From IMG/VR virus record IMGVR_UViG_3300021197_001702, positions 1 through 31,875 of that record: 31,875 nucleotides of DNA, one strand, 5' to 3'. This document shows positions 1,199 through 31,626 of the stretch, piece after piece. Each line of letters begins with the position of its first letter. The stretch's first letter is position 1. Source of the stretch: a virus. The notes beneath the pieces were generated by a model, which was not told the origin of the DNA, did not search any database, and saw only the letters and a program-made list of their open reading frames with translations. The position numbers and the translations under genes were made by a program.

Positions 1199-2383
1199 TT
1201 AAAACCATACTATCTGTTGTTTAATAGTATCGTTAATATAGTCCAAAGTGGAATCAAAGTCAAGAGAATTATAAAGTTGCTCTAATTTTATCATTTCTCT
1301 GGTGAGCATACTACCCTCTGCTCGGATTCCTACTTCTTTTAATTTAATTCTGTAATATAGTTTAAGCCAGAATAAGTCATCGTAATCAGACTGAAACTGT
1401 TCATTGGTCAGCTTAAGCCGTGGTATTGCAGAGAATTTTGGCTGCTTATATGGTGGGCACTCTTGGTTGTCATATCTGGAGTTTTCCCTGATTGCGATGG
1501 GAAAAGCGGACGTATATGTCGCATACATCTGCTCAAGGTATACCTTTAGGTTATTTATATCATACTTATAGGTTTTATAATAACAGACATCAAAAACTTC
1601 ATCTCTATTTAAATCATAGCGAGACATATAGGACTGCATTTTTGGAGAATTCAAGTTTGCTATTAATCTCCATGGCGCATTCTGATCTATTAGAAACCCA
1701 TACGAAGAAGCGGCGAGTGTATAAAATTCATAATTTCCGCTCCTGAGATATTTGCTAATCATGGAGTATCCATCAGAAAAACTCTCCTCCGATACTTCAA
1801 TACATAATCCCGTGTTTGTTGGATTAAAATATTTTGACATAATCATGCCACTTTTAGTAAGGGGGAACATTTTATCCACATTTGAATAAAATTCATTTAA
1901 AAATATCTCAATGAAATCTTCAAAATTATATATATCTTTTTCTTTGCCTCTAGCTAGCAGCGTTTGCCTAACAAAGACATCATACATGTCTTTTATTTTG
2001 TAATCGTAAAATGCGTGTGGGCTAGCAAATCCCTTTTTTGCGTCCCAATCATTAGTTATGAAATTGTCAGGTACTAATTTTTTTTGCGCCTCTATTTTGA
2101 TATATCTCCGCATTTCTTCAAAAGCATCAGCAACAAAATTTAAACACATCACTGTTTTTCCGCCGTTGCTAGTTATTTCCCTCAGAAACACCTCATCAAC
2201 ATTAATTGTATTATTTCTCGGATCTAATCTTCCATAATATATATTTTTGCCATTATGAAAATTGTACCCTCTAATATATTGTGACTGTACTCTAGCGATT
2301 AAAGCTTTGTTGCTGAATGAATTCTTTGCTCCTGAGCTGTTTTTCTTATTTATCGATAAATTTTTGTATTTTTTATATGACAT
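1199..2383 (-). CDS. Hypothetical protein between baseplate hub and polymerase
   Basis: 394 residues, with a basic N-terminus (MSYKKYKNLSINKKNSSG) followed by a mixed alpha/beta, Tyr- and Asn-rich body. No catalytic motif, signal peptide or membrane segment was found. Aromatic-rich stretches (FHNGKNIYYGRLDPR, NSRYDNQECPPYKQP) look like a virion protein. It follows the large hub gene after 11 bases with an AGGAAG ribosome site and ends one base before the TTG start of the polymerase, so it may be a late baseplate/adsorption gene or a link to the replication genes. Not recognised. Confidence 0.68.
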   Translation of the reverse strand: MSYKKYKNLSINKKNSSGAKNSFSNKALIARVQSQYIRGYNFHNGKNIYYGRLDPRNNTINVDEVFLREITSNGGKTVMCLNFVADAFEEMRRYIKIEAQKKLVPDNFITNDWDAKKGFASPHAFYDYKIKDMYDVFVRQTLLARGKEKDIYNFEDFIEIFLNEFYSNVDKMFPLTKSGMIMSKYFNPTNTGLCIEVSEESFSDGYSMISKYLRSGNYEFYTLAASSYGFLIDQNAPWRLIANLNSPKMQSYMSRYDLNRDEVFDVCYYKTYKYDINNLKVYLEQMYATYTSAFPIAIRENSRYDNQECPPYKQPKFSAIPRLKLTNEQFQSDYDDLFWLKLYYRIKLKEVGIRAEGSMLTREMIKLEQLYNSLDFDSTLDYINDTIKQQIVWF

Positions 2384-17004: not shown

Positions 17005-18786
17005 TTAGCCGTTAAGGTCACGACAGATAACAAGACCATACATATCTGGTCTAACCATCTTCTTAGCGTAGCGTGTCATGACACCCTTACGAGGTACAAA
17101 GTCCTCGATACCGAAGATAGTTGGAGTTACCTGAAGCGGTACATATGGAGCGTAAACATATCCGCTCTCAAGGAATGAACCACCTTTACGTCCGACGAGA
17201 AGTACGTTTCTCGGGAAATAAGGGTCGACATATACGTCCCACTTCTTGCTCAATGATCCAACATTAACAGCACCAATTGTTCCACGGTCAGCATCAGCGG
17301 TTACACTAGCACGGAAGCCAGCAGTAAACTCAAGGATGTTAGCAACCTCTGGTGAACAAACAACAAAGTTTGCTCCGCCGCGAAGTGTCTTTCTGTGGAT
17401 TTGAGCTGAAACATCATTAACGGTTTCGACAAGAGTCTCATACCATTCGGAAACGGTACCAGTAAAGTCAGCACCCATCAAAGATTCGTTGTTATAGGTT
17501 GTTCCACCCACAGTGCCAATCTGTTGTCCAGAGGCTCTGTCAAGGAATCTACCCGGACGACGTGACCAATATTGAGTTCCAGCGGCTGCGCCTTTGATAA
17601 GATCCTCAAGGATCTCACGGTCAATCTCAAGAGCAATTTGCTCAGAGAGAATGCTTGTAAGCTCAACTTCCGCATCAAGGTTGTGATAAGCATTGAGATC
17701 TTGTCCCAATTCTGGAGTCCACTTAGCCTTGAGCTTCTTTGTCATCGCAGTAACACTGATGGAATCAACTTTGATGTTGAGTTCTGGAATGTTGATGTTA
17801 TCTTCGAGTCCCCATGTATCCGCCCCAGCAACAACACCGATAGCATCGCCGGAAGCAGCAGCAGCAGTTCCGTTAAAGTTATCAGAAATTGGGAAAGAAA
17901 CAACATGTGGTACAGATGGACCAACACTGATAGCTGAACCAGTCAACTTTTTCTTAAGTTCTGTTGTGGTTTCAGAACCAGTAGCAGCCATAACAACAAG
18001 AAGGTGAGCATCAGTAGTACCACTGAGTTGAGTCAATCTTCTTACCTGTACACCACCGTTACCACCAGACGCATTTGTACCAGACATAGCGATATCTCTC
18101 AATCCGAGAGAAACAGCAACAAGGTTGTCCTTGTTTAACTGGCTAAGTGTGGAGGTTGCGATCTTACCAACAACAACAGCCGATCCAGATGGAATATCTG
18201 GGTCGAAACGACAAAGCTTTGCTGCCTCGGATGCTTCAGAACCGGGGAATGCTTCAATTTCTGCGTGAACAGTAATTACAGGTGCTGTTTGTGAGCCTGT
18301 TGGTGATGAGTAACCATTGTTAAGAGCATAGAAACTCTTTTCAGAACCACTAGCAGGTCCAGAGAGGTCTACACCGCCTGTGATCTGCTGTCCAACTTTT
18401 CCTCCACCGTATACGGAATCACCGGACTCATCTCCGAGTCTAGCTCTATCCTTGGTGAAGTCAAGAAAGAAAATGAGTCCCGATGGGAGGCTCATTGGCT
18501 GAACACTAACAAGATCGTTAGCGATCAAAGATCCGAATACACGGCGTACAATCGGGAATGCTACAGAAGCAAAACCCTCAACATCGCCATTATTCATAGC
18601 AGATGCTGCTTCTCTAAGAAGCTCTCTAGCTTGGTTCTCAAGCAAGCGAGCCATAGTGTCTTTAGAACGTTCGCTATTCATTCCCTCTAGAAGACCAGTG
18701 TTTTCCCACTTCGCAAGCAGGGCAGCACCTTCCTTCTGGAGGTCACGATTAACAATACCTTCTGTTAATTTATCTAAAACTGACAT
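17005..18786 (-). CDS. 23: Major capsid protein (gp23-like)
   Basis: 593 residues (T4 gp23 is 521). The HK97-fold T4-type signature is clear: FPIVRRVFGSLIANDLVSVQPMSLPSG in residues ~78-105, VDSISVTAMTKKLKAKWTPE, then LTSILSEQIALEIDREIL, and the C-terminal YAPYVPLQVTPTIFGIEDF. The N-terminal delta domain ends with LRE59-A60, a good site for the gp21 protease, comparable with the T4 cleavage near residue 65. An insertion-rich Ser/Gly region (residues ~110-290) accounts for the extra length. The hexameric shell protein is the most abundant virion component. The gene follows scaffold by 22 bases and ends in a strong terminator at 16948-16978. Confidence 0.95.
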   Translation of the reverse strand: MSVLDKLTEGIVNRDLQKEGAALLAKWENTGLLEGMNSERSKDTMARLLENQARELLREAASAMNNGDVEGFASVAFPIVRRVFGSLIANDLVSVQPMSLPSGLIFFLDFTKDRARLGDESGDSVYGGGKVGQQITGGVDLSGPASGSEKSFYALNNGYSSPTGSQTAPVITVHAEIEAFPGSEASEAAKLCRFDPDIPSGSAVVVGKIATSTLSQLNKDNLVAVSLGLRDIAMSGTNASGGNGGVQVRRLTQLSGTTDAHLLVVMAATGSETTTELKKKLTGSAISVGPSVPHVVSFPISDNFNGTAAAASGDAIGVVAGADTWGLEDNINIPELNIKVDSISVTAMTKKLKAKWTPELGQDLNAYHNLDAEVELTSILSEQIALEIDREILEDLIKGAAAGTQYWSRRPGRFLDRASGQQIGTVGGTTYNNESLMGADFTGTVSEWYETLVETVNDVSAQIHRKTLRGGANFVVCSPEVANILEFTAGFRASVTADADRGTIGAVNVGSLSKKWDVYVDPYFPRNVLLVGRKGGSFLESGYVYAPYVPLQVTPTIFGIEDFVPRKGVMTRYAKKMVRPDMYGLVICRDLNG

Positions 18787-18808: not shown

Positions 18809-19831
18809 TTAATTAATACCAGCCAAACGTTTCATTCTGTCCAAATTAGGATCAGCTTTTTGTTTAGCCTCGCTGCCTTTAAGCAAAGCTGAAGAACGCT
18901 TTGTCACCGCCTCGCTAAGTGATTTCGGAGCAGAACTTTTATGTACCTGCTCTCCCACTGCGCCCTGAAGGGTTTCATAAATTACTTTCGCCTCTTCAAC
19001 TGTTTTAGATTTTGATATAGCTTCGACAAGTTTATCTTTTTGTCGCCCATTCAACGAGTCGCTATTCAAAGCCTTGTTTGTATAAAGTAACCTAGCATTT
19101 TGTAGGTTAACCTCACTTAAAGTTCCTTTTACCCTATCGGTAAATGACTTCATCTCTTGGACGTTACCAGTCATTTTTTCTAATTTTCCTCTAAGGTTTT
19201 CATTTTGTTTTTCAGAGACTTGTAGAGCCTCCTTTAATTTATCCATCTCTTCATTACTGCTGTCATCATGAGCAGCAAGAGCCTCGGCCTCAAGTTCTGC
19301 TTGGCGAGTCTCAAATTGTGGCTTTTCTAGCCATCCTGTTTTTTCTGGGTGAAAGTCAAGGGTCAGTTTTTCAACAATGTCTTTTAACTGTTCTTCCGAT
19401 ATTTCTATCTCTTCTTCTTCACCCTCGAAAAGGTTTGTTAAGTCTATTTCTTCGTCGATATTCCCAACATCTGAGTCGTTATTGGGGGCTTCTACTGCGA
19501 TCTCCACTTCTTTTGACATGTCCTCATGAGTGGTTATCTCCTCAGTCATCTCCTCTCCTAGAGCCGACTTCATGTATTGCTCCAATCCATCAAGGTCTAG
19601 TTCCATCATTCCATCACCCTGATCTTGGGGATCAGATGGGGCTCCAGTCATCTCTGGGGGTTTTTCGGCAGCATAGTCTACATTGTCTTCAGCACCTTCG
19701 TTTAACATGCTATCAACAGTTTGCCTTATTTCTTGTGAATATTTTTCTATTATTGCTGCTTCCGCATTCTTCATTGCGGCTTCTTTTAGCGCAGTAGCGT
19801 CTACAATTGCTTGATCTAGCATAGATGACAT
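18809..19831 (-). CDS. 22: Prohead scaffold (gp22-like assembly core protein)
   Basis: 340 residues from the chosen start. The frame opens five codons earlier (ATG at 19846), but GGGAG at 19840-19844 lies inside that extension and exactly 8 bases before the ATG at 19831, so translation should begin MSSMLDQAIVDATALKE. The protein is very acidic (residues ~75-160 hold an Asp/Glu-rich block), then strongly coiled-coil (KEALQVSEKQNENLRGKLEK), and ends basic (DPNLDRMKRLAGIN). This composition and its position immediately before the major capsid gene match T4 gp22, the internal scaffold degraded by gp21 before DNA entry. Sequence identity to T4 is not obvious. Confidence 0.82.
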   Translation of the reverse strand: MSSMLDQAIVDATALKEAAMKNAEAAIIEKYSQEIRQTVDSMLNEGAEDNVDYAAEKPPEMTGAPSDPQDQGDGMMELDLDGLEQYMKSALGEEMTEEITTHEDMSKEVEIAVEAPNNDSDVGNIDEEIDLTNLFEGEEEEIEISEEQLKDIVEKLTLDFHPEKTGWLEKPQFETRQAELEAEALAAHDDSSNEEMDKLKEALQVSEKQNENLRGKLEKMTGNVQEMKSFTDRVKGTLSEVNLQNARLLYTNKALNSDSLNGRQKDKLVEAISKSKTVEEAKVIYETLQGAVGEQVHKSSAPKSLSEAVTKRSSALLKGSEAKQKADPNLDRMKRLAGIN

Positions 19832-19878
19832 GTCGTTATCTCCCATATGAATATGTAAAAAAGAATAAATTTCCAGTA

Positions 19879-20186: not shown

Positions 20187-20223
20187 AAAAGGTGAGGGCA
20201 GAGACCCGTAGATCCCTGCCCTC
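20187..20223 (-). terminator. UACG-tetraloop hairpin terminator after large fibre gene
   Basis: On the coding strand GAGGGCAG (20216-20223) pairs with CTGCCCTC (20194-20201), and GGATC pairs with GGTCT through G-U pairs, closing on the extra-stable tetraloop C(UACG)G. About 13 pairs are followed by ACC and four T's. The short T-tract makes it a moderate terminator or an mRNA 3'-end protector. Confidence 0.6.
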
Positions 20224-20238
20224 GGTTATCAAAAAGGT

Positions 20239-22566
20239 TTACTTCTTGAGGATTGCTTTCAATTCTTCGATCTGAACTTGTTGAGCCTTTACAGCCTCTA
20301 CGAGAACAGAAGTAAGTCTTGAGTAGTCAACACCGTGAATTCCGTCATTACCTACGGATACGGCTTGTGGAATAACACTCTTAACTTCTTGAGCGAGGAA
20401 ACCGAAGTCTCTCTCTCCAGAGTTTTTCCAAGTGAATTCAACACCGTTAAGGCTCATAACTGCATCAAGAGCGTTGTCCATAGCAGTTACTTCTTCCTTG
20501 AGGTTTTCATCGGAATAAGTTACGAAAGCAGTTGCTTTGATCTTACCAGCATCGCCAGCAAGGTTTGCAACTTCGAGAGCGTAACCGTTTGTGCTTGCGC
20601 CAAGCTCCAAGATGAGGGCATCGGAAGCGTTTTGGAACTGCAAGTGGTTAGCAGAAGCATCATAGAGCATGTACTCATCAGCATCACCACCGAAGAACTT
20701 AGCATCAACACCAGCGCCGTCAGCACCTTGGGTAAAGGTACCGTCAAGCTGCATTGCTCCGTTAGCTTGGATTGCTCCAGCGTTAGAGATGGTTACACCA
20801 GTAGATCCGTATCCACCACCGAAAGTAGCAGCATCATCAACTGTAAGACCAGAGTTAAGCTGAAGAGCACCAGCAGAACTAATAGTAGCACCAGTAGAAC
20901 CATATCCACCACCGAAAGTAGCAGAAGTATCAACTGTAAGGCTAGCGTTAAGTTGAAGGGCACCAGAATCACTGATAGTAGCACCAGTAGATCCGTATCC
21001 ACCACCGAAAGTAGCTCCACTAGTAACACCGATACCAGCAGCGAATGTTGCGTTTTGACTAGAAACACCCATCACCGCTTGTCCAGCCGCGTTAGCGATT
21101 CCACCGCCTTCTCCACCGAGAAGGACAGATCCACCAACAGAAACGTTAGAGGAAGCAGACATTGTTGTTGCAGTCAATCCGTTGCTGAATGCAGCAAGAG
21201 CAGATCCGAGCAAGTTTCCGCGAGTCATTTTCTTAGAAGCGTTGCTGTCTTCAGAGTCAATGATAACAGCCAAGTCAGCATCAACAACAGTTGTCTTTGC
21301 GCTCAACTCATCAAAGTCTACAGCAAGAACACCAGAAGAAGCAGCAAGACCAGCACCAGCAAGACCAGTTGCAACATCGTCGTTCATCATAGCATCAGTA
21401 ACTTTAGTAGCACCAATTGATGCTACACCTGCGTTGCTCAAAGTTACGTCACCGCTCATGCTTACAGCAGCAGGATCGCCATTGCTATCACCAAGAATAA
21501 ACTTAGCAGCAGCCAATCCAGCCATCTTAGCCAAAGTAACTTGATTATCAGCAACGTGTCCAGTTTGGATAGACCCAGATGCGTAGTGCTCTGAATCGAG
21601 AGCGCCGAGAGCAATGTGCTCAGAGTTAACCGCATCGTCAGCAATCTTAGCGCCATCAACTGCATCAGCAGCAATGTGAACATTGTCGATTGAACCGTCA
21701 ACGTATTGGTCAGAGTCAACAGAGTTGGCGCTCATGTGAGCCAAGTCGATTGAGCCATCAACGTATTGATCGGAATCAACAGAATTGACAGCCATCTTTG
21801 CAAGAGTGATCTGCGCGTCAGCAATGTGTGCTGTGTCGATTGAACCATCAACGTATTGATCGGAATCAACAGAGTTAACAGCCATCTTTGCAAGAGTGAT
21901 CTGTGCGTCAGCGATGTGCGCTGTGTCAATTGAGCCGTCAACGTATTGATCGGAATCAACAGAGTTAGCGCTCATGTGAGCAAGATCAACAGCGCCAGCA
22001 GCGAGTTCGTCACTGTCAACAGCGTCATCAGCGAGCATAGCGTTGGTGATACCTCCTGCTTTCACGCGGAGAGCATCGGAGTTAAGCTCGATTGAGCTAT
22101 CATCAACACCAACAGCGAGAACACCAGAAGAAGCAGCGAGACCGTTACCAGCAGCAGCGGTCATAAGGTCAGCAATGCTTTCCTTCTTTGTACTATTATC
22201 AGTTGCGTCAACAATAGCAATGCTATCAGCAGCAACGTCAACAGCAGCAGCACCAAGCTCGTTGAGGTCCATTGAGAAAGTAATTGTTTGTCCAGAAGCA
22301 GTAGTGTCAAGACCAGTACCTCCAGCAAGTGTTAAAGATTGACTGTTTGAAACAGTTCCAGTTCCGCTGTCGCCAGCGATGTCAAGAACAGAGTCAAGGT
22401 CGATAAGGGACGATTCCCCCTCGTTTTGTAAGTAAAGTTTTGAAGAGCCAACAGCACCAGAAGCAAAGAGATAAACTCCTCCTTCAGGGGCAGCGGCATC
22501 AGCAGATCCAGAGTTGTTCTGGAATGAGGCAAATTTCCCGTATTGGGATAATGTAATAGAAGCCAT
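20239..22566 (-). CDS. Large tail fibre with decapeptide repeats and S74 chaperone domain
   Basis: 775 residues. Residues ~1-150 are a Ser/Gly/Ala-rich N-terminal part. About 170-340 is a run of ten-residue repeats of the type SVDSDQYVDG / SIDTAHIADA, a pattern expected to form a trimeric beta-helical shaft. About 500-600 holds three 31-residue copies of TFGGGYGSTGATIS. The C-terminal ~92 residues are a peptidase S74 chaperone with YSDENLKEEV at 684-693 (Ser685, Lys690), DFGFLAQEV and VEAVKAQQ, ending in a short coiled coil. Self-cleavage before Ser685 would leave a mature fibre of about 684 residues. A GGAGG ribosome site precedes the ATG. Probably the main host-recognition fibre. Confidence 0.9.
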   Translation of the reverse strand: MASITLSQYGKFASFQNNSGSADAAAPEGGVYLFASGAVGSSKLYLQNEGESSLIDLDSVLDIAGDSGTGTVSNSQSLTLAGGTGLDTTASGQTITFSMDLNELGAAAVDVAADSIAIVDATDNSTKKESIADLMTAAAGNGLAASSGVLAVGVDDSSIELNSDALRVKAGGITNAMLADDAVDSDELAAGAVDLAHMSANSVDSDQYVDGSIDTAHIADAQITLAKMAVNSVDSDQYVDGSIDTAHIADAQITLAKMAVNSVDSDQYVDGSIDLAHMSANSVDSDQYVDGSIDNVHIAADAVDGAKIADDAVNSEHIALGALDSEHYASGSIQTGHVADNQVTLAKMAGLAAAKFILGDSNGDPAAVSMSGDVTLSNAGVASIGATKVTDAMMNDDVATGLAGAGLAASSGVLAVDFDELSAKTTVVDADLAVIIDSEDSNASKKMTRGNLLGSALAAFSNGLTATTMSASSNVSVGGSVLLGGEGGGIANAAGQAVMGVSSQNATFAAGIGVTSGATFGGGYGSTGATISDSGALQLNASLTVDTSATFGGGYGSTGATISSAGALQLNSGLTVDDAATFGGGYGSTGVTISNAGAIQANGAMQLDGTFTQGADGAGVDAKFFGGDADEYMLYDASANHLQFQNASDALILELGASTNGYALEVANLAGDAGKIKATAFVTYSDENLKEEVTAMDNALDAVMSLNGVEFTWKNSGERDFGFLAQEVKSVIPQAVSVGNDGIHGVDYSRLTSVLVEAVKAQQVQIEELKAILKK
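20801..21020 (-). repeat. Three 93-base repeats in the large fibre gene
   Basis: The word atccaccaccgaaagta recurs at 20811, 20904 and 20997, a 93-base period. Each copy encodes 31 residues containing TFGGGYGSTG. The copies differ mostly at synonymous positions. Confidence 0.85.
21701..21970 (-). repeat. Tandem repeats of 90/60 bases in the large fibre gene
   Basis: The + strand word acgtattgatcggaatcaac recurs at 21761, 21851 and 21941 (90-base steps), with a close variant at 21701 (60 bases earlier). In protein these are multiples of a ten-residue unit of the SVDSDQYVDG / SIDTAHIADA type. Near-identity at DNA level suggests recent duplication or a route for length change. Confidence 0.85.
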
Positions 22567-22611: not shown

Positions 22612-22635
22612 AAAGAAAAAGCGCCAGAGGGCGCT
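22612..22635 (-). terminator. Terminator in the leader of the large fibre gene
   Basis: On the coding strand AGCGCC CTCT GGCGCT forms a compact six-pair stem followed by TTTTCTTTA. It lies 46 bases before the fibre ATG and downstream of a candidate late promoter (22661-22669). A second small hairpin (22639-22655, AGCAC/GTGCT) precedes it. Confidence 0.8.
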
Positions 22636-22753: not shown

Positions 22754-23224
22754 TTAGTTTCCTGTATTAATACCAGAGCCAGACAATACATACATATCCG
22801 CAGTTGGTATATGAGTTAACTCAGCGGCGATTTGAAATCCGCTCTGTCCCGATCCGGCACTAGAGATGTACAAGTGGCTGCATTTAACATTCATTACAGT
22901 CGGAGAATTCTTGTAAGAGCCACTTATGTAATTATCTGCTGTCCCACTACCGTAGTGATTCAAATCAGGAGGTATGACAATATAGTTATGCTCATTAATA
23001 AGGGAAGGTGCTGCTGTGCGGTCATCGAAATGTAACAAAATGGCAGAGGAGCCAGTGTTCACGACCTGAATCGATCTCGTAATGGCACCAAATACTACTT
23101 TTTGTTGACTATTAGTTTGAGACCCGTCGCCATTTTGGACAATAGAGCCTGTCAAGTATGGTCGACCTGCGACCTGATATGCTGCCGAATTTCCGATTCC
23201 GCTTGTTCTTGGTGAGTATGCCAT
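22754..23224 (-). CDS. Probable virion protein (head decoration or fibre-associated)
   Basis: 156 residues with little Lys or Arg, rich in Ser, Gly, Asn and beta-strand-like segments. It begins MAYSPRTSGIGNSAAYQVAG and contains the stretch QVVNTGSSAILLHFDD, which looks like an Ig-like or jelly-roll beta sandwich. No signal peptide or catalytic motif is seen. A strong GGAG ribosome site precedes the start, consistent with high expression. It lies between bS21 and the large fibre gene, followed by a leader with a terminator. A decoration-type capsid protein or small fibre-associated protein is the best guess, from composition and place only. Confidence 0.68.
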   Translation of the reverse strand: MAYSPRTSGIGNSAAYQVAGRPYLTGSIVQNGDGSQTNSQQKVVFGAITRSIQVVNTGSSAILLHFDDRTAAPSLINEHNYIVIPPDLNHYGSGTADNYISGSYKNSPTVMNVKCSHLYISSAGSGQSGFQIAAELTHIPTADMYVLSGSGINTGN

Positions 23225-23235
23225 TTTATTTTCTC

Positions 23236-23472
23236 CTAGTCTTTATACTTAGCATCGTAATCTCTTTGAAGCTTTTTAATTACCCTATTTCGCTCTTTTT
23301 TCTTACGACGACGTTTGTCTGTTGGTTTCTCAAAGTACATGTGCTTTTCTCGCCATTCGTCTTGAATGCCTTCTTTTTTAACCTTCTTAGTAAATCTCTT
23401 GATCATTCTCTCAGGAGATTCATTCTTTCTTGGTGTAACTTCAACATGAACTGGTTTAGCTTTCTTTCCCAT
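23236..23472 (-). CDS. rpsU: Ribosomal protein bS21 homologue
   Basis: 78 residues, close to bacterial bS21 (about 70). After a short N-terminal extension the protein follows the bS21 pattern: ESPERMIKRFTKKVKKEGIQ, then the signature REKHMYFEKPTDKRRRKKK, then a long basic helix. In bacteria bS21 sits on the small-subunit platform next to the 3' end of 16S rRNA and helps initiation. Phage copies are known and are thought to join host ribosomes and bias initiation towards viral messages. It sits between two virion genes with an AGG ribosome site upstream, so it would be made late, together with structural proteins. Identity is confident; the effect on translation is inferred. Confidence 0.93.
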   Translation of the reverse strand: MGKKAKPVHVEVTPRKNESPERMIKRFTKKVKKEGIQDEWREKHMYFEKPTDKRRRKKKERNRVIKKLQRDYDAKYKD

Positions 23473-23479
23473 TTTATAC

Positions 23480-23914
23480 CTATTTTATTAGTTGTTTCCA
23501 TGCGGCTGATCCGCCTAGCAAGTCCGATATATCAACACCCGGATCATCCGGCTCCACATCTCCCAGAGGCGAGTTCGGAGCTGGATTGCTTGGACTGGCT
23601 GCGCCTTTTGAGATTGGCTTCGTGCCCTCAAAGACATCCACTCCTCCGTAAGCAGTTTTTCCAATCGCATCAAGCATTTTTCTCTTTGTTTCTTGGAGTT
23701 TTCTTACTTGATCTTGTTGCTTTGCTTTTCTGAAATTATTTTTACTTGTATTTTCTTCGCTCTTATCCGGGGTGGCTACTGTTACCCTTTCAGTGATTAC
23801 AGTGTTACCTATTCCCTTAACAACCTCGGAAACTATAGTTGACAAAAAGCCCTCTGTTAAGAGGACCTCTTTTACACTTTCTTTAATAAGTTGTTTAAAT
23901 TCTTCTTTTTTCAT
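23480..23914 (-). CDS. Small prohead/virion protein with likely gp21 cleavage site
   Basis: 144 residues, starting only 4 bases after the protease gene. The N-terminus is an amphipathic helix (MKKEEFKQLIKESVKEVLLT) ending in LTE21-G22, which fits the T4-type prohead protease rule (hydrophobic-x-Glu before a small residue). The middle is Lys/Gln/Arg-rich and probably coiled coil; residues 95-144 are Pro/Ser/Asp-rich and likely disordered. The size, charge and position beside gp21 resemble small prohead core components, but there is no recognisable family. Function inferred. Confidence 0.7.
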   Translation of the reverse strand: MKKEEFKQLIKESVKEVLLTEGFLSTIVSEVVKGIGNTVITERVTVATPDKSEENTSKNNFRKAKQQDQVRKLQETKRKMLDAIGKTAYGGVDVFEGTKPISKGAASPSNPAPNSPLGDVEPDDPGVDISDLLGGSAAWKQLIK

Positions 23915-23918
23915 AAAT

Positions 23919-24515
23919 CTAGCTCAATATATCCTTAATTAATCGATTTAATTTATCAGCCCTTGTAAATACATTACTATCTTTATTCTCTTTCATCATG
24001 AAGGCCCCGGCTGTTGATGGCTCAGATACCATATCAAAGCATATTAACTGAAAGTCTTCATTAACGATGGAGCCATTTGGTCCCTCTTGTAGTGTTCCTG
24101 TGCCCCTAGAAGAGATACCAATTTTACAACCGCCCTCAACTAATGCCCTCAAGATTTGACCAGAAGGAGTATTGAGAACTTGTATCTTCCCATATACATC
24201 GTTGCCTTCCATCCAGACTGCTGTCATCTTATGTGAAACATTGGCTAGCTCGACAATATTAGACTCTGGGTGGTCTAATTCTCCAAGTGCCCTGTTTTCT
24301 TTTACTAATTTTTCATACAGACCAATCTCTCTTTTAAGGACACCCTCTGTATATATTCTTCCGTTACCATTTGGTACGCCACATCTCTGAATTACTCCAG
24401 ATAAAATCATACCGCCATCTGATACGAATCTTTTTTCAGACTCAGTGAGCAAATCTTGGCATATGCCACCGTCACAAAGTTCATAGTATTCTCTAATTAC
24501 CATTTTTTCAGTCAT
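23919..24515 (-). CDS. 21: Prohead core protease (gp21-like, peptidase S80/U9)
   Basis: 198 residues, the normal size for this family. The conserved blocks are NGNGRIYTEGVL at 49-60, GELDHPE at 78-84 with the catalytic histidine His82, and GISSRG at 133-138 with the catalytic serine, followed by FDMVSEPSTAGAF. These match the T4 gp21 serine protease fold. In T4 the enzyme is built into the scaffold core, activates by self-cleavage and digests scaffold and the capsid N-terminus after a (Leu/Ile)-x-Glu sequence. Fitting sites are visible in the major capsid protein here (LRE59) and in the next gene product (LTE21). An AAGGA ribosome site precedes the ATG. Confidence 0.95.
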   Translation of the reverse strand: MTEKMVIREYYELCDGGICQDLLTESEKRFVSDGGMILSGVIQRCGVPNGNGRIYTEGVLKREIGLYEKLVKENRALGELDHPESNIVELANVSHKMTAVWMEGNDVYGKIQVLNTPSGQILRALVEGGCKIGISSRGTGTLQEGPNGSIVNEDFQLICFDMVSEPSTAGAFMMKENKDSNVFTRADKLNRLIKDILS

Positions 24516-24928: not shown

Positions 24929-25476
24929 TATTCGTACCTATAGATCCCTGCCAAGCCATATGAATAGCCGGGGTAATAAGGTTGTTGTGTCCCCTTTGTT
25001 GTTTCTTGTGGCACTTCTCCAAGTTCCGTAGAGTCTTCTGAAGATGGGTCGAGCAAGTTTTCTTCTCTCTCCATTTCCGCCTTTGTTATAGCTTCCATAT
25101 ATTCGGTCTCATTCTTAATAAATCCAGATATGTTGTATAACACAATCTCTGTAAGATTTTGTATGTCTTTATTGTCTGGGTATTCAGCCGCTAGTGCTCC
25201 AAAGACATTTGTGCCCCTTACAGTTTCTGGTTGTACTACCCCGTTCTCCACAAGGTAATTAAAAAACCTATTTTGAGCATTATAAATGATATCGCTAAAA
25301 TTTCCCCTGCTGTATGCGACAATCTTTCTCTCCTCAGTCTTAACAACTATAGCAATATCTTTATGGTTATAAATCATCAGGTGACCAGCTAGTGATTTTT
25401 TCATATCAAGGTCGTCAATATATTCTGTAATATACTCCGGTGTTGGAGGATAATTTTTAACTTGTACTTTTATCAT
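24928..25476 (-). CDS. Hypothetical protein between portal and protease
   Basis: 182 residues. The first ~125 residues look globular (MIYNHKDIAIVVKTEERKI, then a helix containing IIYNAQNRFFNYLVENG). The last ~55 residues are acidic then Pro/Gly/Tyr-rich (QQPYYPGYSYGLAGIYRYE), a likely flexible tail. No known motif, signal peptide or membrane segment was found. It overlaps the upstream gene by 20 bases and shares one base with the downstream gene, so it belongs to the same tightly coupled string. A structural or assembly role in the prohead is inferred from its neighbours. Confidence 0.72.
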   Translation of the reverse strand: MIKVQVKNYPPTPEYITEYIDDLDMKKSLAGHLMIYNHKDIAIVVKTEERKIVAYSRGNFSDIIYNAQNRFFNYLVENGVVQPETVRGTNVFGALAAEYPDNKDIQNLTEIVLYNISGFIKNETEYMEAITKAEMEREENLLDPSSEDSTELGEVPQETTKGTQQPYYPGYSYGLAGIYRYE

Positions 25477-26287
25477 TTGATTTTAATTCCTCAACTAATT
25501 GTTGAATCTTGAGTATTTTTGTAAAATCAGAATCGACTAATTCTCTATCTTTCATACCCTGTAGAAGACTGTGTATCTCTGTCCTATCCTCTGGGAAAAC
25601 CTCCATATCAATTGATTCGTCCAGTTCCCTTTTCAGTCTTGATATCTCGTCATCCAGATATATTTTCATTTCAATGCCGTTATCATTCACAGATCCCGTA
25701 TATGCCTTTAACATTTGTTTTTGGTTTTCGTTCAAATTAGAATATGAATTGTTAAATTTTTCAACAAATGTTTTGTAAACAATGTTATCTATGTGTTTCA
25801 TACTTTTCGATTCTTCCATGTCGCCAGTCGCAACCATGGAATCAACAATGCTTTCTTCTAAAAGAACCCTTTTTTTGGCTTCAATTTTTGGATTATTAAA
25901 TATTTGATGTAGAGTTGCCAAATCTTTGTAGTTAGGAACAAAATTAGAGTAAATATCACTAGACAACTCTTTATTAATTCTAGATATCAAAGCGCTCTGC
26001 TCATTAAACAGCCTTTTGTTGTCCAGTGCGCTTCTTTCAAGTCTAGATTCTACAATTATCTTTTCTGCCAATCTTCTTTCTTCAACTTGTGTATTTACTA
26101 TATTTTCATACAACTTGTAATCTCTATACAGTGTTGTTCCCGGTTTAAAAAAATCTTTAAATATTGAAATAATAGTATTTTTTCGAACGTTATCTTTTTT
26201 TATACTAGCTTTGGTCAACTCTCTAACCAAAGCTTCGTAAAGAAAAGCGGTATTTCTTTTCTTATTATGTTTAATCTTGCTTGACAT
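25457..26287 (-). CDS. Hypothetical helical protein in head gene cluster
   Basis: 276 residues, almost entirely charged and helical, without membrane segments. The basic N-terminus (MSSKIKHNKKRN) is followed by predicted long helices (ERRLAEKIIVESRLERSAL and, near the end, an acidic EISRLKRELDESIDMEVF). It starts inside the portal gene (17-base overlap) and overlaps the next gene by 20 bases, so its synthesis is tied to portal and protease. Position between portal and prohead protease suggests a prohead core or inner-head protein, comparable in place to T4 gp67/gp68, but the sequence is not recognisable as either. Role inferred from context only. Confidence 0.75.
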   Translation of the reverse strand: MSSKIKHNKKRNTAFLYEALVRELTKASIKKDNVRKNTIISIFKDFFKPGTTLYRDYKLYENIVNTQVEERRLAEKIIVESRLERSALDNKRLFNEQSALISRINKELSSDIYSNFVPNYKDLATLHQIFNNPKIEAKKRVLLEESIVDSMVATGDMEESKSMKHIDNIVYKTFVEKFNNSYSNLNENQKQMLKAYTGSVNDNGIEMKIYLDDEISRLKRELDESIDMEVFPEDRTEIHSLLQGMKDRELVDSDFTKILKIQQLVEELKSNDKSTS

Positions 26288-28217
26288 CTTTTTTGTTCTC
26301 CAACTCTGTAATCAAACTTTTAATTTCGTTATTGTGATCAAGAATTTGTTGTTCTTGTATATCATAATTAGGTTCTTGGTCTTCAGAAACCCCTCTAGAC
26401 AGTCTTTTCATGTCATTAAAACCCTTTGGAACGCCCGTGATTCCCCTCATTCCGCCCATCGATTTCATAGATCTTTGTACGGCTCTTTTACCAGATAAAT
26501 CATTTCTTGGCTCATATATCTTGCCCTTTGAATTGCTCGTGGTAGTGTATGTCTTACCTCCGCGACCTTTGAATTCTGCTTTTTTCACATCGTCGTCACG
26601 ATTTCCCGGTACAGCCAATAAGTTTCCTTCGGGCTCCTCTGGGGTTTCTGTCTCTGTCTCTACCTCTTCAGCACCGGCATCAAGGTCTCCACCCATATCT
26701 TCAGTGTCACCCAAACCGCCCAGAGACCCCAAGCCTCCGCCAGTCATAGCTGCTGCTTCTCCGCCTTCACCATCAAGAAGATCAAATTCTGCTTGCATCA
26801 GTTTATCATATGCTAATTCTCTTTGGTTTCTCAAATATTCTGATTCTGATATATTAAACAGATTTGTAGCTACCCATCTCTTGCTAAAGAATCCATCAGT
26901 TGCTGCGCTAGCAACATCGAACTTAGTTCTCCACTGCTCCAATTCTTGTAGCTCTGCTATTTTTGATGGATTATTCAAGGACATTTTAAAAGATATCAAA
27001 TCGTTGCCCCTGTATCCAAGAGTGTAAAGATGAATTATACCAATCTTTTCTAATTCAGTTATAACAGCTCTTTGTAGCCGCTGGATTGTTCTTGCGAATC
27101 GGATATCCTTTTGAGCAAGTGTTGTTTGGTCTTCGCTTGCCCCTTCTCCTCTGAACAAATACGACTGTGGCACCTTAAGTGCGGAAAACAACTTATCTTT
27201 TAGGTATTTAACATCGTCGATGTCGCCCGTGTAAGTTCCTCCGGGCAGACTTTCTATTTTTGTAGATTGTTGTGCGCCCCTGACTGGTATAAAGTAATCT
27301 TCGTCTACAGACATTGGGTTATAGCGAAGGTCGACACGACCAGTGTTTGCGTCAACAACTTGATTTCTCTTCATTTGAGTTACAACTTTTTGCATGTATT
27401 GCTCTACTTCATTCGGATTAACACCGCCAACATCTACATAAAAAACTCGACGCTCAGGAGATCTTACAATCCTGTATGACATCATTGCATCCTCTAGAAG
27501 TGTTAGTTGCCTGAATATCCTTCTGGCGGGGTCAAGGATTGAGGTGCCATATGGCGCGTACTTATCATTACCCAGTATTCTAAAGTGCGCTACTTGCCAG
27601 TTTTCGAATGTCATTCCTGCTGAATTCCATTGGTATTGGATATAATTTGGATTTGTCTTATCTTCACCCTCCAGCCTCTCAACCTCTCTAGTTGGAAGAC
27701 CTATCGCATTGATAACCCCTTGCTCCTCCTCTATATCAAGATATAGCAGGAAATCTCCAAACTTACACATGGTCCTACACCAACTAAAAAGATTATGCTC
27801 GATATTTAAAACGTTGTGATATAGGGAATTTAGAATAAGTTTTATTTCTTCATTTGGGCAGTGGATCTTTAATAGCGGATGAAGGTGTGAAGAAGTCGTC
27901 ATTTCATCAGCATATATATCCAAAGCAGAAGCAATAATCGGCTCATACTCCATTTGATCAAAGTCAATATATCTTTGACTTCTTGACACATTTGCCAAGG
28001 CAGCACTAGTTAAATTGGAAAAAGGATTGTATGTTGTCTTTTTAAACTGCTGCCCACTAGCTGATTTGAAGTCCGATGAAAACTTGTCCGCATCAGTTCT
28101 TGAGTTTCTCACTACCACTTGGGCATCATAATTGACAAGTGGCCCCGAAAGCAACCTTGTCAGTCTCCTGAATAAAGGAGAAGCTTCATTTCTGGGGTTT
28201 CTATTTCTGTCAGCCAT
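26271..28217 (-). CDS. 20: Portal vertex protein (gp20-like)
   Basis: 648 residues. Typical T4-type portal features: residues 90-108 read MEYEPIIASALDIYADEMT, matching the conserved helical start of the core. The middle carries the family's ILDPARRIFRQLTLLEDAMM block and RIVRSPERRVFYVDVGG, then a region with FRGEG followed by EDQTTLAQKDIRFARTIQR. The C-terminal 150 residues are low-complexity and acidic (Gly-rich, then Glu/Thr/Pro-rich), probably disordered. Twelve copies form the ring through which DNA enters and to which terminase and neck bind. It overlaps the next gene by 17 bases. The acidic tail is longer than I would expect for T4 gp20 and may be processed or phage-specific. Confidence 0.95.
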   Translation of the reverse strand: MADRNRNPRNEASPLFRRLTRLLSGPLVNYDAQVVVRNSRTDADKFSSDFKSASGQQFKKTTYNPFSNLTSAALANVSRSQRYIDFDQMEYEPIIASALDIYADEMTTSSHLHPLLKIHCPNEEIKLILNSLYHNVLNIEHNLFSWCRTMCKFGDFLLYLDIEEEQGVINAIGLPTREVERLEGEDKTNPNYIQYQWNSAGMTFENWQVAHFRILGNDKYAPYGTSILDPARRIFRQLTLLEDAMMSYRIVRSPERRVFYVDVGGVNPNEVEQYMQKVVTQMKRNQVVDANTGRVDLRYNPMSVDEDYFIPVRGAQQSTKIESLPGGTYTGDIDDVKYLKDKLFSALKVPQSYLFRGEGASEDQTTLAQKDIRFARTIQRLQRAVITELEKIGIIHLYTLGYRGNDLISFKMSLNNPSKIAELQELEQWRTKFDVASAATDGFFSKRWVATNLFNISESEYLRNQRELAYDKLMQAEFDLLDGEGGEAAAMTGGGLGSLGGLGDTEDMGGDLDAGAEEVETETETPEEPEGNLLAVPGNRDDDVKKAEFKGRGGKTYTTTSNSKGKIYEPRNDLSGKRAVQRSMKSMGGMRGITGVPKGFNDMKRLSRGVSEDQEPNYDIQEQQILDHNNEIKSLITELENKKDVKQD

Positions 28218-28220
28218 TTT

Positions 28221-29795
28221 TTATCCTTTTAATATCCAACTATATTGTTGTTGCTCTCTAATCTTATCATTTTTTGATATCGGTTTATAGCCTATTTGTC
28301 CGGGTATTGATGTATTTATCTCTGTTTTTACCTTCGTCATAGCACCCAAAAACGCCTTTGTATATTCTACATCTCTCTGGTTCACTTCAAGTGCAGTATC
28401 CCTGACCCAACAACCTATAGCAAAAGCCATCACCAAGTCATCGTTGTACATACGCATAGCTTGGGGTCGACCATTGTGCCAAACAAATGTCTCTAACTCA
28501 CTAAATAGTCTAGCAGAATATATTGTAACTAGTTTATTTCTAATGAATTCTTCCATTTTCGCCACGACAAGAGGTCTGGTCTTAGAGGTCATGGAAAAGC
28601 CAGCAACGGCGTTGCTCATATTTTCACCCTGATACTGCTCAATATATTCATGCGTTGACTTTATCGAATAATACAAGTTTGGATATGCCATATCTCTTAG
28701 CTTATCCAATACAGCATATCCTACGGAGTTATTTTCAATGACCATTAGGCAGTTACCATATTCACGACCAACGTCGTTTAACATGTTAGCAAAGAGGTCC
28801 GGGGTTATCTTTGATTTGTATTCTGCGACAATCTCCATTGTTTCTAGTTTAAAGATATGAAAAACAGAAAAGTCTTTGTCATCTCCCCTAGAAACGTCTG
28901 CTACCAGAAGATACTTGCATTCAGGATTAAATTTTTCCCATATCCAAAAATTTCTATCAAACCCAGTTCTATATTCTGGATCTGCTAAGTTATCTTTAAT
29001 CAACGCCATGTCATCGGCATGAATAACGGTCTCTCCAGACATATTGAAATTACATTCATACTCTTGCGCGATTTGCCTCCGGGACATATTTTTGGTTTCT
29101 TCTGAAAACCACTCCTCATCCCTATCTGGGTGTACATCCCATGGTAGATTAGTGTAGTGAAAATCGTTATTTCTCAATTCTGCGTCGATATAGGTTTGAT
29201 GAAACCAGTTTCCCACACCATTTGGGGTAGATAGAGCGATACAACGACCACCTGTTGACAGAGTAGGGTAGAGACCCGTCCATAGTTCATCAAGCCCTTC
29301 TACGTGCGCTGCCTCATCTACAACGAGGAGAGAAAGAGCTTCTGAACGACCTGCATCTCCTGAAGTCGTAGATGCCTTGATCTGGGATCCATTATTCAAC
29401 TCGAAAGATGTTCTGTTGTCTATTTCAATACTAGCGATCTGCATCCATTCTGGCAAATTCTTCATGATTGCCTTTACTTTCTTCACTAGGTTTGCGGCCG
29501 TTTGAAACTTTGTAGCCATGACAAGAATGTTCTTATCTTTGTGGAAGAGCATCATCCAAGCAACATAGCCAGCAGTAATTGTAGATATACCTAGTTGTCT
29601 CGCCTTCAAAATAATATTGAAACGATAATCATTGAAGTCTTCCAGCAATTGATCTTGAAAGTCGTAAGTTTTAAATGGTATTTGACCCTTAATTGGGTGT
29701 GAGATTTTGGTATAGTTATTTATAAAGTAAGATGGATTTTTACCAGACTTGACAATCTCTTTGAGTTTTTCTTTCTTTGTTAATTGATATGACAT
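28221..29795 (-). CDS. 17: Terminase large subunit (gp17-like DNA packaging motor)
   Basis: 524 residues, close to the usual size. The N-terminal ATPase domain has an adenine/Q-type segment (PFKTYDFQDQL, residues 40-50), a deviant Walker A KARQLGIST at 64-72, Walker B LSLLVVDEAAH at 154-164 with the catalytic Glu, and the coupling motif STPNG at 189-193. The C-terminal RNase H-like nuclease shows the expected acidic residues: VADVSRGDD (Asp300), MVIENNSVG (Glu354) and NDDLVMAFA (Asp452/453). The enzyme docks on the portal, pumps DNA into the prohead using ATP, and cuts concatemers at initiation and headful termination. The portal gene follows after 3 bases, as expected for a packaging pair. 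Confidence 0.96.
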   Translation of the reverse strand: MSYQLTKKEKLKEIVKSGKNPSYFINNYTKISHPIKGQIPFKTYDFQDQLLEDFNDYRFNIILKARQLGISTITAGYVAWMMLFHKDKNILVMATKFQTAANLVKKVKAIMKNLPEWMQIASIEIDNRTSFELNNGSQIKASTTSGDAGRSEALSLLVVDEAAHVEGLDELWTGLYPTLSTGGRCIALSTPNGVGNWFHQTYIDAELRNNDFHYTNLPWDVHPDRDEEWFSEETKNMSRRQIAQEYECNFNMSGETVIHADDMALIKDNLADPEYRTGFDRNFWIWEKFNPECKYLLVADVSRGDDKDFSVFHIFKLETMEIVAEYKSKITPDLFANMLNDVGREYGNCLMVIENNSVGYAVLDKLRDMAYPNLYYSIKSTHEYIEQYQGENMSNAVAGFSMTSKTRPLVVAKMEEFIRNKLVTIYSARLFSELETFVWHNGRPQAMRMYNDDLVMAFAIGCWVRDTALEVNQRDVEYTKAFLGAMTKVKTEINTSIPGQIGYKPISKNDKIREQQQYSWILKG

Positions 29796-30723: not shown

Positions 30724-31626
30724 TTATACACCTAGTTTTCCTATTCTTTCACTTAAAAGATCAATTTTATTTTGCTGCTGTTTTACCGCCTCAACCAAAA
30801 ATGAAATAATTTTAGTATAATCCATGGTATTCGCATACTCTGGATCTTGTGACCATTCAACAATTTCTGGAATTACTTTACCAACCTCTTCAGCAATAAA
30901 TCCGTAATCCTTTTTCCCCGTGTCTTTCCAACTATATGATACACCTTGTAGCTTGTTAATTGTGTCAAGAGCGGAATTAAGAGGCTCAACATCCTCCTTG
31001 AATCGTATGGAAGAATAGGAAAGGAAAGCATTTGCCTTAATTTGTCCGTCTGGACGGCTGCTATCTGGTAATGTTATTGCGTGAGTTGCGGAGCAATCCC
31101 CCACCGCCAAATAATTAGCCACATGAACGCAAGAGCCCGACAAGACGAGCCCCCTGTGTTCCGAACCGGAGATTATCAAAGCCCCGTGACCACCGTCTTC
31201 GTAATATATCTTTGCCTCGTTGTTTGGTCCGAAGTTAAAAGCTGATTGGTCTCCTGTGGATACAAACTGTAGTTCACCGCCGATCTTAAGTGGAGAGGCT
31301 CCCTCTAAAGTTCCGGCTATTTGGATTGTTGAGCCGGATAAGACGATACCATTTGATGAGCCAGATATAACTAGAAAATCGTCTTGATTTTCATTGTATT
31401 CTATATGAGCATCACTGTTGGTACCAAATTTTATTTTAGTATCGTCGGCAACTTTCATATCAGTACCGTCAAAAGTAAAGGTGGATATGCCTGCGAAGGA
31501 GCCTCCGTTATTGTATTGTAAATGGGTGCTAGAGCCGCCCGGACTTGTTGTGACGCCCTCTGCGTCTGTAGAATTAGCTTTAATTATAGAAACTAGCTTT
31601 CCATGGGTGTACTTACCTATCGCCAT
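30724..31626 (-). CDS. Small tail fibre/spike protein with S74 self-cleaving chaperone domain
   Basis: 300 residues. Residues 1-200 are Gly/Ser/Thr-rich beta-type sequence with repeated ISGS and LSGS turns (for example FLVISGSSNGIVLSGS and ALIISGSEHRGLVLSGS), typical of trimeric fibre shafts. The last ~97 residues form a peptidase S74 intramolecular chaperone: YSSIRFKEDV at 204-213 carries the expected Ser205 and Lys210 (Ser-x4-Lys, as in endosialidase chaperones), followed by the conserved DYGFIAEEV and VEAVKQQQ elements and a coiled-coil end. In this family the domain trimerises, folds the shaft, then cleaves itself off just before the serine. It is a paralogue of the larger fibre at 20239-22566. 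The substrate is unknown; a fibre or host-contact role is inferred. Confidence 0.85.
   Translation of the reverse strand: MAIGKYTHGKLVSIIKANSTDAEGVTTSPGGSSTHLQYNNGGSFAGISTFTFDGTDMKVADDTKIKFGTNSDAHIEYNENQDDFLVISGSSNGIVLSGSTIQIAGTLEGASPLKIGGELQFVSTGDQSAFNFGPNNEAKIYYEDGGHGALIISGSEHRGLVLSGSCVHVANYLAVGDCSATHAITLPDSSRPDGQIKANAFLSYSSIRFKEDVEPLNSALDTINKLQGVSYSWKDTGKKDYGFIAEEVGKVIPEIVEWSQDPEYANTMDYTKIISFLVEAVKQQQNKIDLLSERIGKLGV

Follow-up and report, generated by a model that had tools for sequence, protein, structure and literature searches.

A virus-encoded ribosomal protein bS21 within the head gene cluster of a T4-like viral clade

The window, an IMG/VR virus record of 31,875 bases, encodes a true bS21 of 78 residues on its minus strand, inside the structural gene cluster of a T4-like myovirus. 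Among the viral contigs sampled, this gene is a fixed part of the clade; it follows a prohead protease gene and a small gene, p144, and is under strong purifying selection. Phage bS21 and its location in the head gene cluster are both already published. What the protein does to the host ribosome is weighed below among several readings.

A bS21 gene in a T4-like head gene cluster

The 78-residue ORF matched the Pfam family PF01165 (Ribosomal_S21) with an E-value of 1.1e-14 and 54.3 bits against a cut-off of 27, and the alignment ran over positions 1–54 of the 55 in the profile, which is the whole domain. It also scored 43.2 bits with the NCBIfam equivalog model TIGR00030 (S21p; cut-off 28.95), and its PHROG match was family 21469, 'ribosomal protein S21'. 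The bS21 chains of solved ribosomes in the PDB could be aligned with the window protein at E-values down to 7e-6, and the conserved residues of the family are present. In the AlphaFold model (mean pLDDT 83), residues 20–44 and 50–76 form two helices, as expected for bS21. A structural search of the PDB with this model gave weak matches (best E-value 0.19), the two best being bS21 chains from a chloroplast and a bacterial ribosome. The original prediction had called the bS21 signature unambiguous, and the two curated models, both above their cut-offs, together with the PHROG assignment bear this out. Because the protein is short and highly basic, an unrelated basic nucleic-acid-binding protein was also considered; since two curated bS21 models, independent of each other, exceed their cut-offs and the family residues are conserved, we regard that identity as scarcely credible.

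Compared with bacterial bS21, the window protein is extended at its N-terminus and has one additional residue inserted before the KP motif. Gap-free counting from this shared motif, with the F. johnsoniae sequence as the comparison, places Arg63, residue 13 after the motif, at the Tyr54 position, which is thus not aromatic.

The surrounding genes are those of a T4-like head. On the minus strand they run in the order TerL, portal, p276, p182, p104, prohead protease, p144, bS21, p156, a tail-fibre-like protein, p101, p345 and major capsid protein (Table 1), and the window contains a gp20-type portal, a gp21-type protease, a gp23-type capsid protein and a sheath. The protease is two genes from bS21, and the portal, TerL and capsid genes are all at most 10 genes away. 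The predicted head-cluster location was therefore confirmed, with the PF03420 protease and PF07230 portal upstream, the major head protein downstream and all of them co-directional. The narrower statement that bS21 lies between two virion genes follows from position only: its immediate neighbours p144 and p156 lack a Pfam or PHROG family match. The scaffold candidate p345 had no PHROG match either. A T4-type late-promoter motif, TATAAATA, occurred 4 times against 2.35 expected and is not enriched.

Table 1. Coordinates of bS21 and associated features in the window
Feature	Position	Strand	Basis
Large terminase subunit (TerL)	28221..29795	-	phrog_2, E=3e-54; 43% identity to Flavobacterium phage immuto and Microcystis phage Mel-JY01
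Portal protein, T4 gp20 type	26271..28217	-	PF07230, E=1.1e-75
Prohead protease, T4 gp21 type	23919..24515	-	PF03420, E=7e-27; phrog_207, E=1.5e-50
p144, directly upstream of bS21	23480..23914	-	Constant position; without known family
p144 stop TAG overlapping weak AGG SD core, with 7-nt gap to bS21 ATG	23473..23482	-	Sequence
bS21 gene (rpsU homologue), 78 aa	23236..23472	-	PF01165, TIGR00030; ATG start
p156, directly downstream of bS21, strong SD	22754..23224	-	Without Pfam or PHROG match
Terminator-like hairpin after p156, before tail-fibre-like gene	22620..22635	-	AGCGCCCTCTGGCGCT and T-rich tail; pattern match only
p345, just before MCP, scaffold candidate	18809..19846	-	Position; weak match to equivalent immuto and Mel-JY01 genes
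Major capsid protein (MCP), T4 gp23 type	17005..18786	-	phrog_138, E=1.9e-69

Several other features of the window were recorded. The gene after the portal (25457–26287, minus strand) gave a Glyco_hydro_2_C match barely above the Pfam cut-off (E=3e-5), which probably arose by chance in a protein of the structural cluster. Two tail-fibre-like proteins (20239–22566 and 30724–31626, both minus strand) have similar C-terminal ends resembling the intramolecular-chaperone type, and the first of them contains internal repeats (AVNSVDSDQYVDGSID). A strong GC-rich hairpin of 13 pairs, 8 of them GC (20194–20223, minus strand), lies at the start of the p101 ORF, which has a TTG start and almost no SD; the hairpin is either a terminator or a sign that the start is misassigned.

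Conservation of the protease-p144-bS21 order

Two scans of viral contigs yielded slightly more than 100 loci surrounding either bS21 or the protease, from which duplicates were then removed. Without exception, the 74 distinct contigs with bS21 have p144 as the immediate upstream neighbour of that gene, in the same orientation. The protease is co-directional with bS21 in 73 of the 73 contigs that have it, and no more than 500 bases upstream in 55 of these. Ten contigs were without bS21, but each of them breaks off no further than about 500 bases from the protease or p144, indicating that these absences are only apparent. A Pfam search found bS21 in 39 of 40 whole records, nearly all of which had been chosen for a related protease. 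Median pairwise dN/dS, calculated by the Nei-Gojobori method at high dS so that only the ranking is trustworthy, rose from the protease (0.031) through bS21 (0.053, over 24 close sequences) and p144 (0.161) to p156 (0.403). This low ratio and the presence of bS21 at 62–100% identity in 26 further viral contigs (L002–L027) exclude a chance ORF. The claim that the gene is virus-encoded is also supported.

The constant partner p144 had no Pfam match and weak PHROG matches only, and its AlphaFold model is mostly helical and of low confidence (mean pLDDT 60). The protein has an amphipathic segment at its N-terminus, a conserved (L/I/V)FE|G motif and, towards the C-terminus, a DPGVDIS motif. The second of these resembles the T4 protease motif L/I-X-E (PMC9026906), a weak hint that p144 may be a processed prohead core protein. 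In one contig, LBWB01000054.1 (L142, positions 1467–2201, plus strand), p144 and bS21 form one continuous ORF of 244 residues, flanked on both sides by GIY-YIG-like ORFs; it could be a genuine fusion or result from misassembly.

The late-cluster location had been put forward as worth noting, but it is not new. Chen et al. 2022 reported that bS21 of Bacteroidetes phages neighbours the genes for TerL, portal, protease and capsid, generally within five genes (PMC9723584). The same authors surveyed 900 published bS21 phages, in which the protease was the structural gene most often located nearby (310 genomes, usually 2–4 genes away); in lake phages, bS21 and core structural genes were highly transcribed together, as late co-expression (PMC9723584). 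The lake Bacteroidetes phages (clades a–e) thus share with the window both the neighbourhood and the link to late expression. In those phages, however, bS21 and the structural genes lie on opposite strands, whereas they are co-directional in the present clade, and the residue at the Tyr54 position is aromatic there (anti-SD blocking) but arginine in the window protein.

The cultivated phage Mel-JY01 (PP395634), a complete genome from the host Microcystis elabens with an annotated bS21 (WWT39311), has the same one-strand order as the window, namely protease, hypothetical protein, bS21, a gene in the scaffold position and capsid, and likewise uses SD sites. Its bS21 is divergent, however, and fell on a long branch outside the viral clade in a first tree; its gene upstream of bS21 did not match the p144 profile, and its bS21 as a scan query found only three short contigs. 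Flavobacterium phage immuto (MW353175) shares the head cluster, but no bS21 was found in its genome. The pelagiphage HTVC008M resembles the window in being a myovirus with its own bS21; a tblastn search of the phage collection with the window protein gave no match at an E-value of 0.01.

Translation signals and the host

Between the p144 stop and the bS21 ATG there are 7 nt; the sole SD-like core (AGG) overlaps that stop and is weak (-3.7). Most close relatives keep this arrangement of TAGG, 6–7 nt and ATG. The spacing and the weak SD within the preceding stop suggest that translation of bS21 is coupled to that of p144. The downstream gene p156, by comparison, has a median SD of -7.3 in the relatives. 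Across the window, an SD duplex at least as strong as -4.5 kcal/mol is present at 70% of 27 genes, compared with 28% of shuffled leaders, in agreement with the earlier remark that many head-cluster genes carry strong SD sites. At this threshold, 57% of Mel-JY01 genes have an SD duplex (18% when shuffled), whereas the proportion in the immuto cluster is 0%. From the leaders, the phage appears to be adapted to a host that uses SD sites, and the SD usage of its mRNAs sets the present clade apart from the Bacteroidetes phages.

A phylogeny with bacterial bS21 had been suggested as a route to the host lineage. Under a mixture model with 63 alignment columns, 19 viral bS21s formed one clade with 99/99 support outside all sampled bacteria. 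The tree covered three phyla in depth (Pseudomonadota, Cloacimonadota and Patescibacteria) and a few single PDB sequences (Firmicutes, Flavobacterium and Borreliella), none of which emerged as the host lineage. Some Woesebacteria-type proteins that had fallen inside the viral clade in a first quick tree vanished from it with a better model and more rows. No psbA, looked for as a sign of cyanophages, was found in 18 records. Two close matches came from MAGs, L141 from one assigned to Acidiferrobacteraceae and L142 from one assigned to Woesebacteria. A bacterial origin was rejected for both, because these contigs are phage by gene content and have the same protease-p144-bS21 order. They are either misbinned or derived from infected cells, so that the bins say little, if anything, about the host.

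Possible roles of the phage bS21

An action of bS21 on the host ribosome, of whatever kind, is far more probable than any one of the individual accounts of its effect. The account we favour, to which we give roughly even odds, is that the gene would be transcribed late together with the head-assembly genes and translated in coupling with p144, that the product would take the place of host bS21, or add to it, at the 30S platform next to the anti-SD, and that late-infection ribosomes carrying it would favour the SD-rich messages of the phage. It builds on features seen directly, namely the identity of bS21, its strict co-directional placement after the protease and p144, the stop-start spacing, the purifying selection and the strong SD sites used by the phage; the timing of expression, the coupling to p144, the entry into ribosomes and the preference for certain messages would follow by analogy with published systems. 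Among these, bS21 of HTVC008M enters the E. coli 70S ribosome (Mizuno et al. 2019, PMC6375957), loss of bS21 or its C-terminal region shifts SD preference in F. johnsoniae (PMC9976891), and bS21 homologues alter protein output in Francisella (PMC9578407). The N-terminal extension and KP insertion of the window protein, as well as the lack of late-promoter enrichment, count against this account.

Efficient initiation on natural mRNAs needs bS21 (PMC6375957, PMC9723584), and the phage protein could therefore simply keep ribosomes complete while host synthesis is shut off, leaving the choice of messages unchanged. The strong conservation of bS21 fits any ribosomal role, this one included. Simple supply does not obviously require that the viral proteins diverge into a clade of their own with a distinct N-terminus, yet it is compatible with such divergence, and we consider it possible though doubtful. 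An opposite emphasis comes from the observation that E. coli ribosomes with pelagiphage bS21 keep only about 5% of their activity (PMC6375957), a result compatible with inhibition and redirection alike; the protein would then be mainly an inhibitor, its ribosomes translating host messages poorly. That assay used a non-native host ribosome, however, and poisoning ribosomes would be poorly timed when capsid genes are being expressed, so we judge this unlikely.

Chen et al. also named encapsidation as a possibility (PMC9723584). A bS21 packaged in the head, perhaps via p144, would be injected and act at the start of infection. The position of the gene just after the protease and p144, the protease-like motif of p144 and the single p144-bS21 ORF of L142 speak for such packaging, but bS21 has no obvious targeting peptide and the one fusion seen is possibly an assembly error, which leaves it very unlikely in our estimation. 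Its most specific form, in which p144 would belong to the prohead core and take bS21 along into the capsid and the injected bS21 would retune host ribosomes in the first moments of infection, is highly improbable; if it were true, the L142 ORF would be its one-piece version.

The present results add a large T4-like viral clade with a fixed, co-directional protease-p144-bS21 unit and apparently SD-led initiation. The constant presence of p144 upstream of bS21 throughout the clade provides a concrete lead, and with this clade the question whether a phage bS21 alters message choice could be addressed outside the Bacteroidetes phages.
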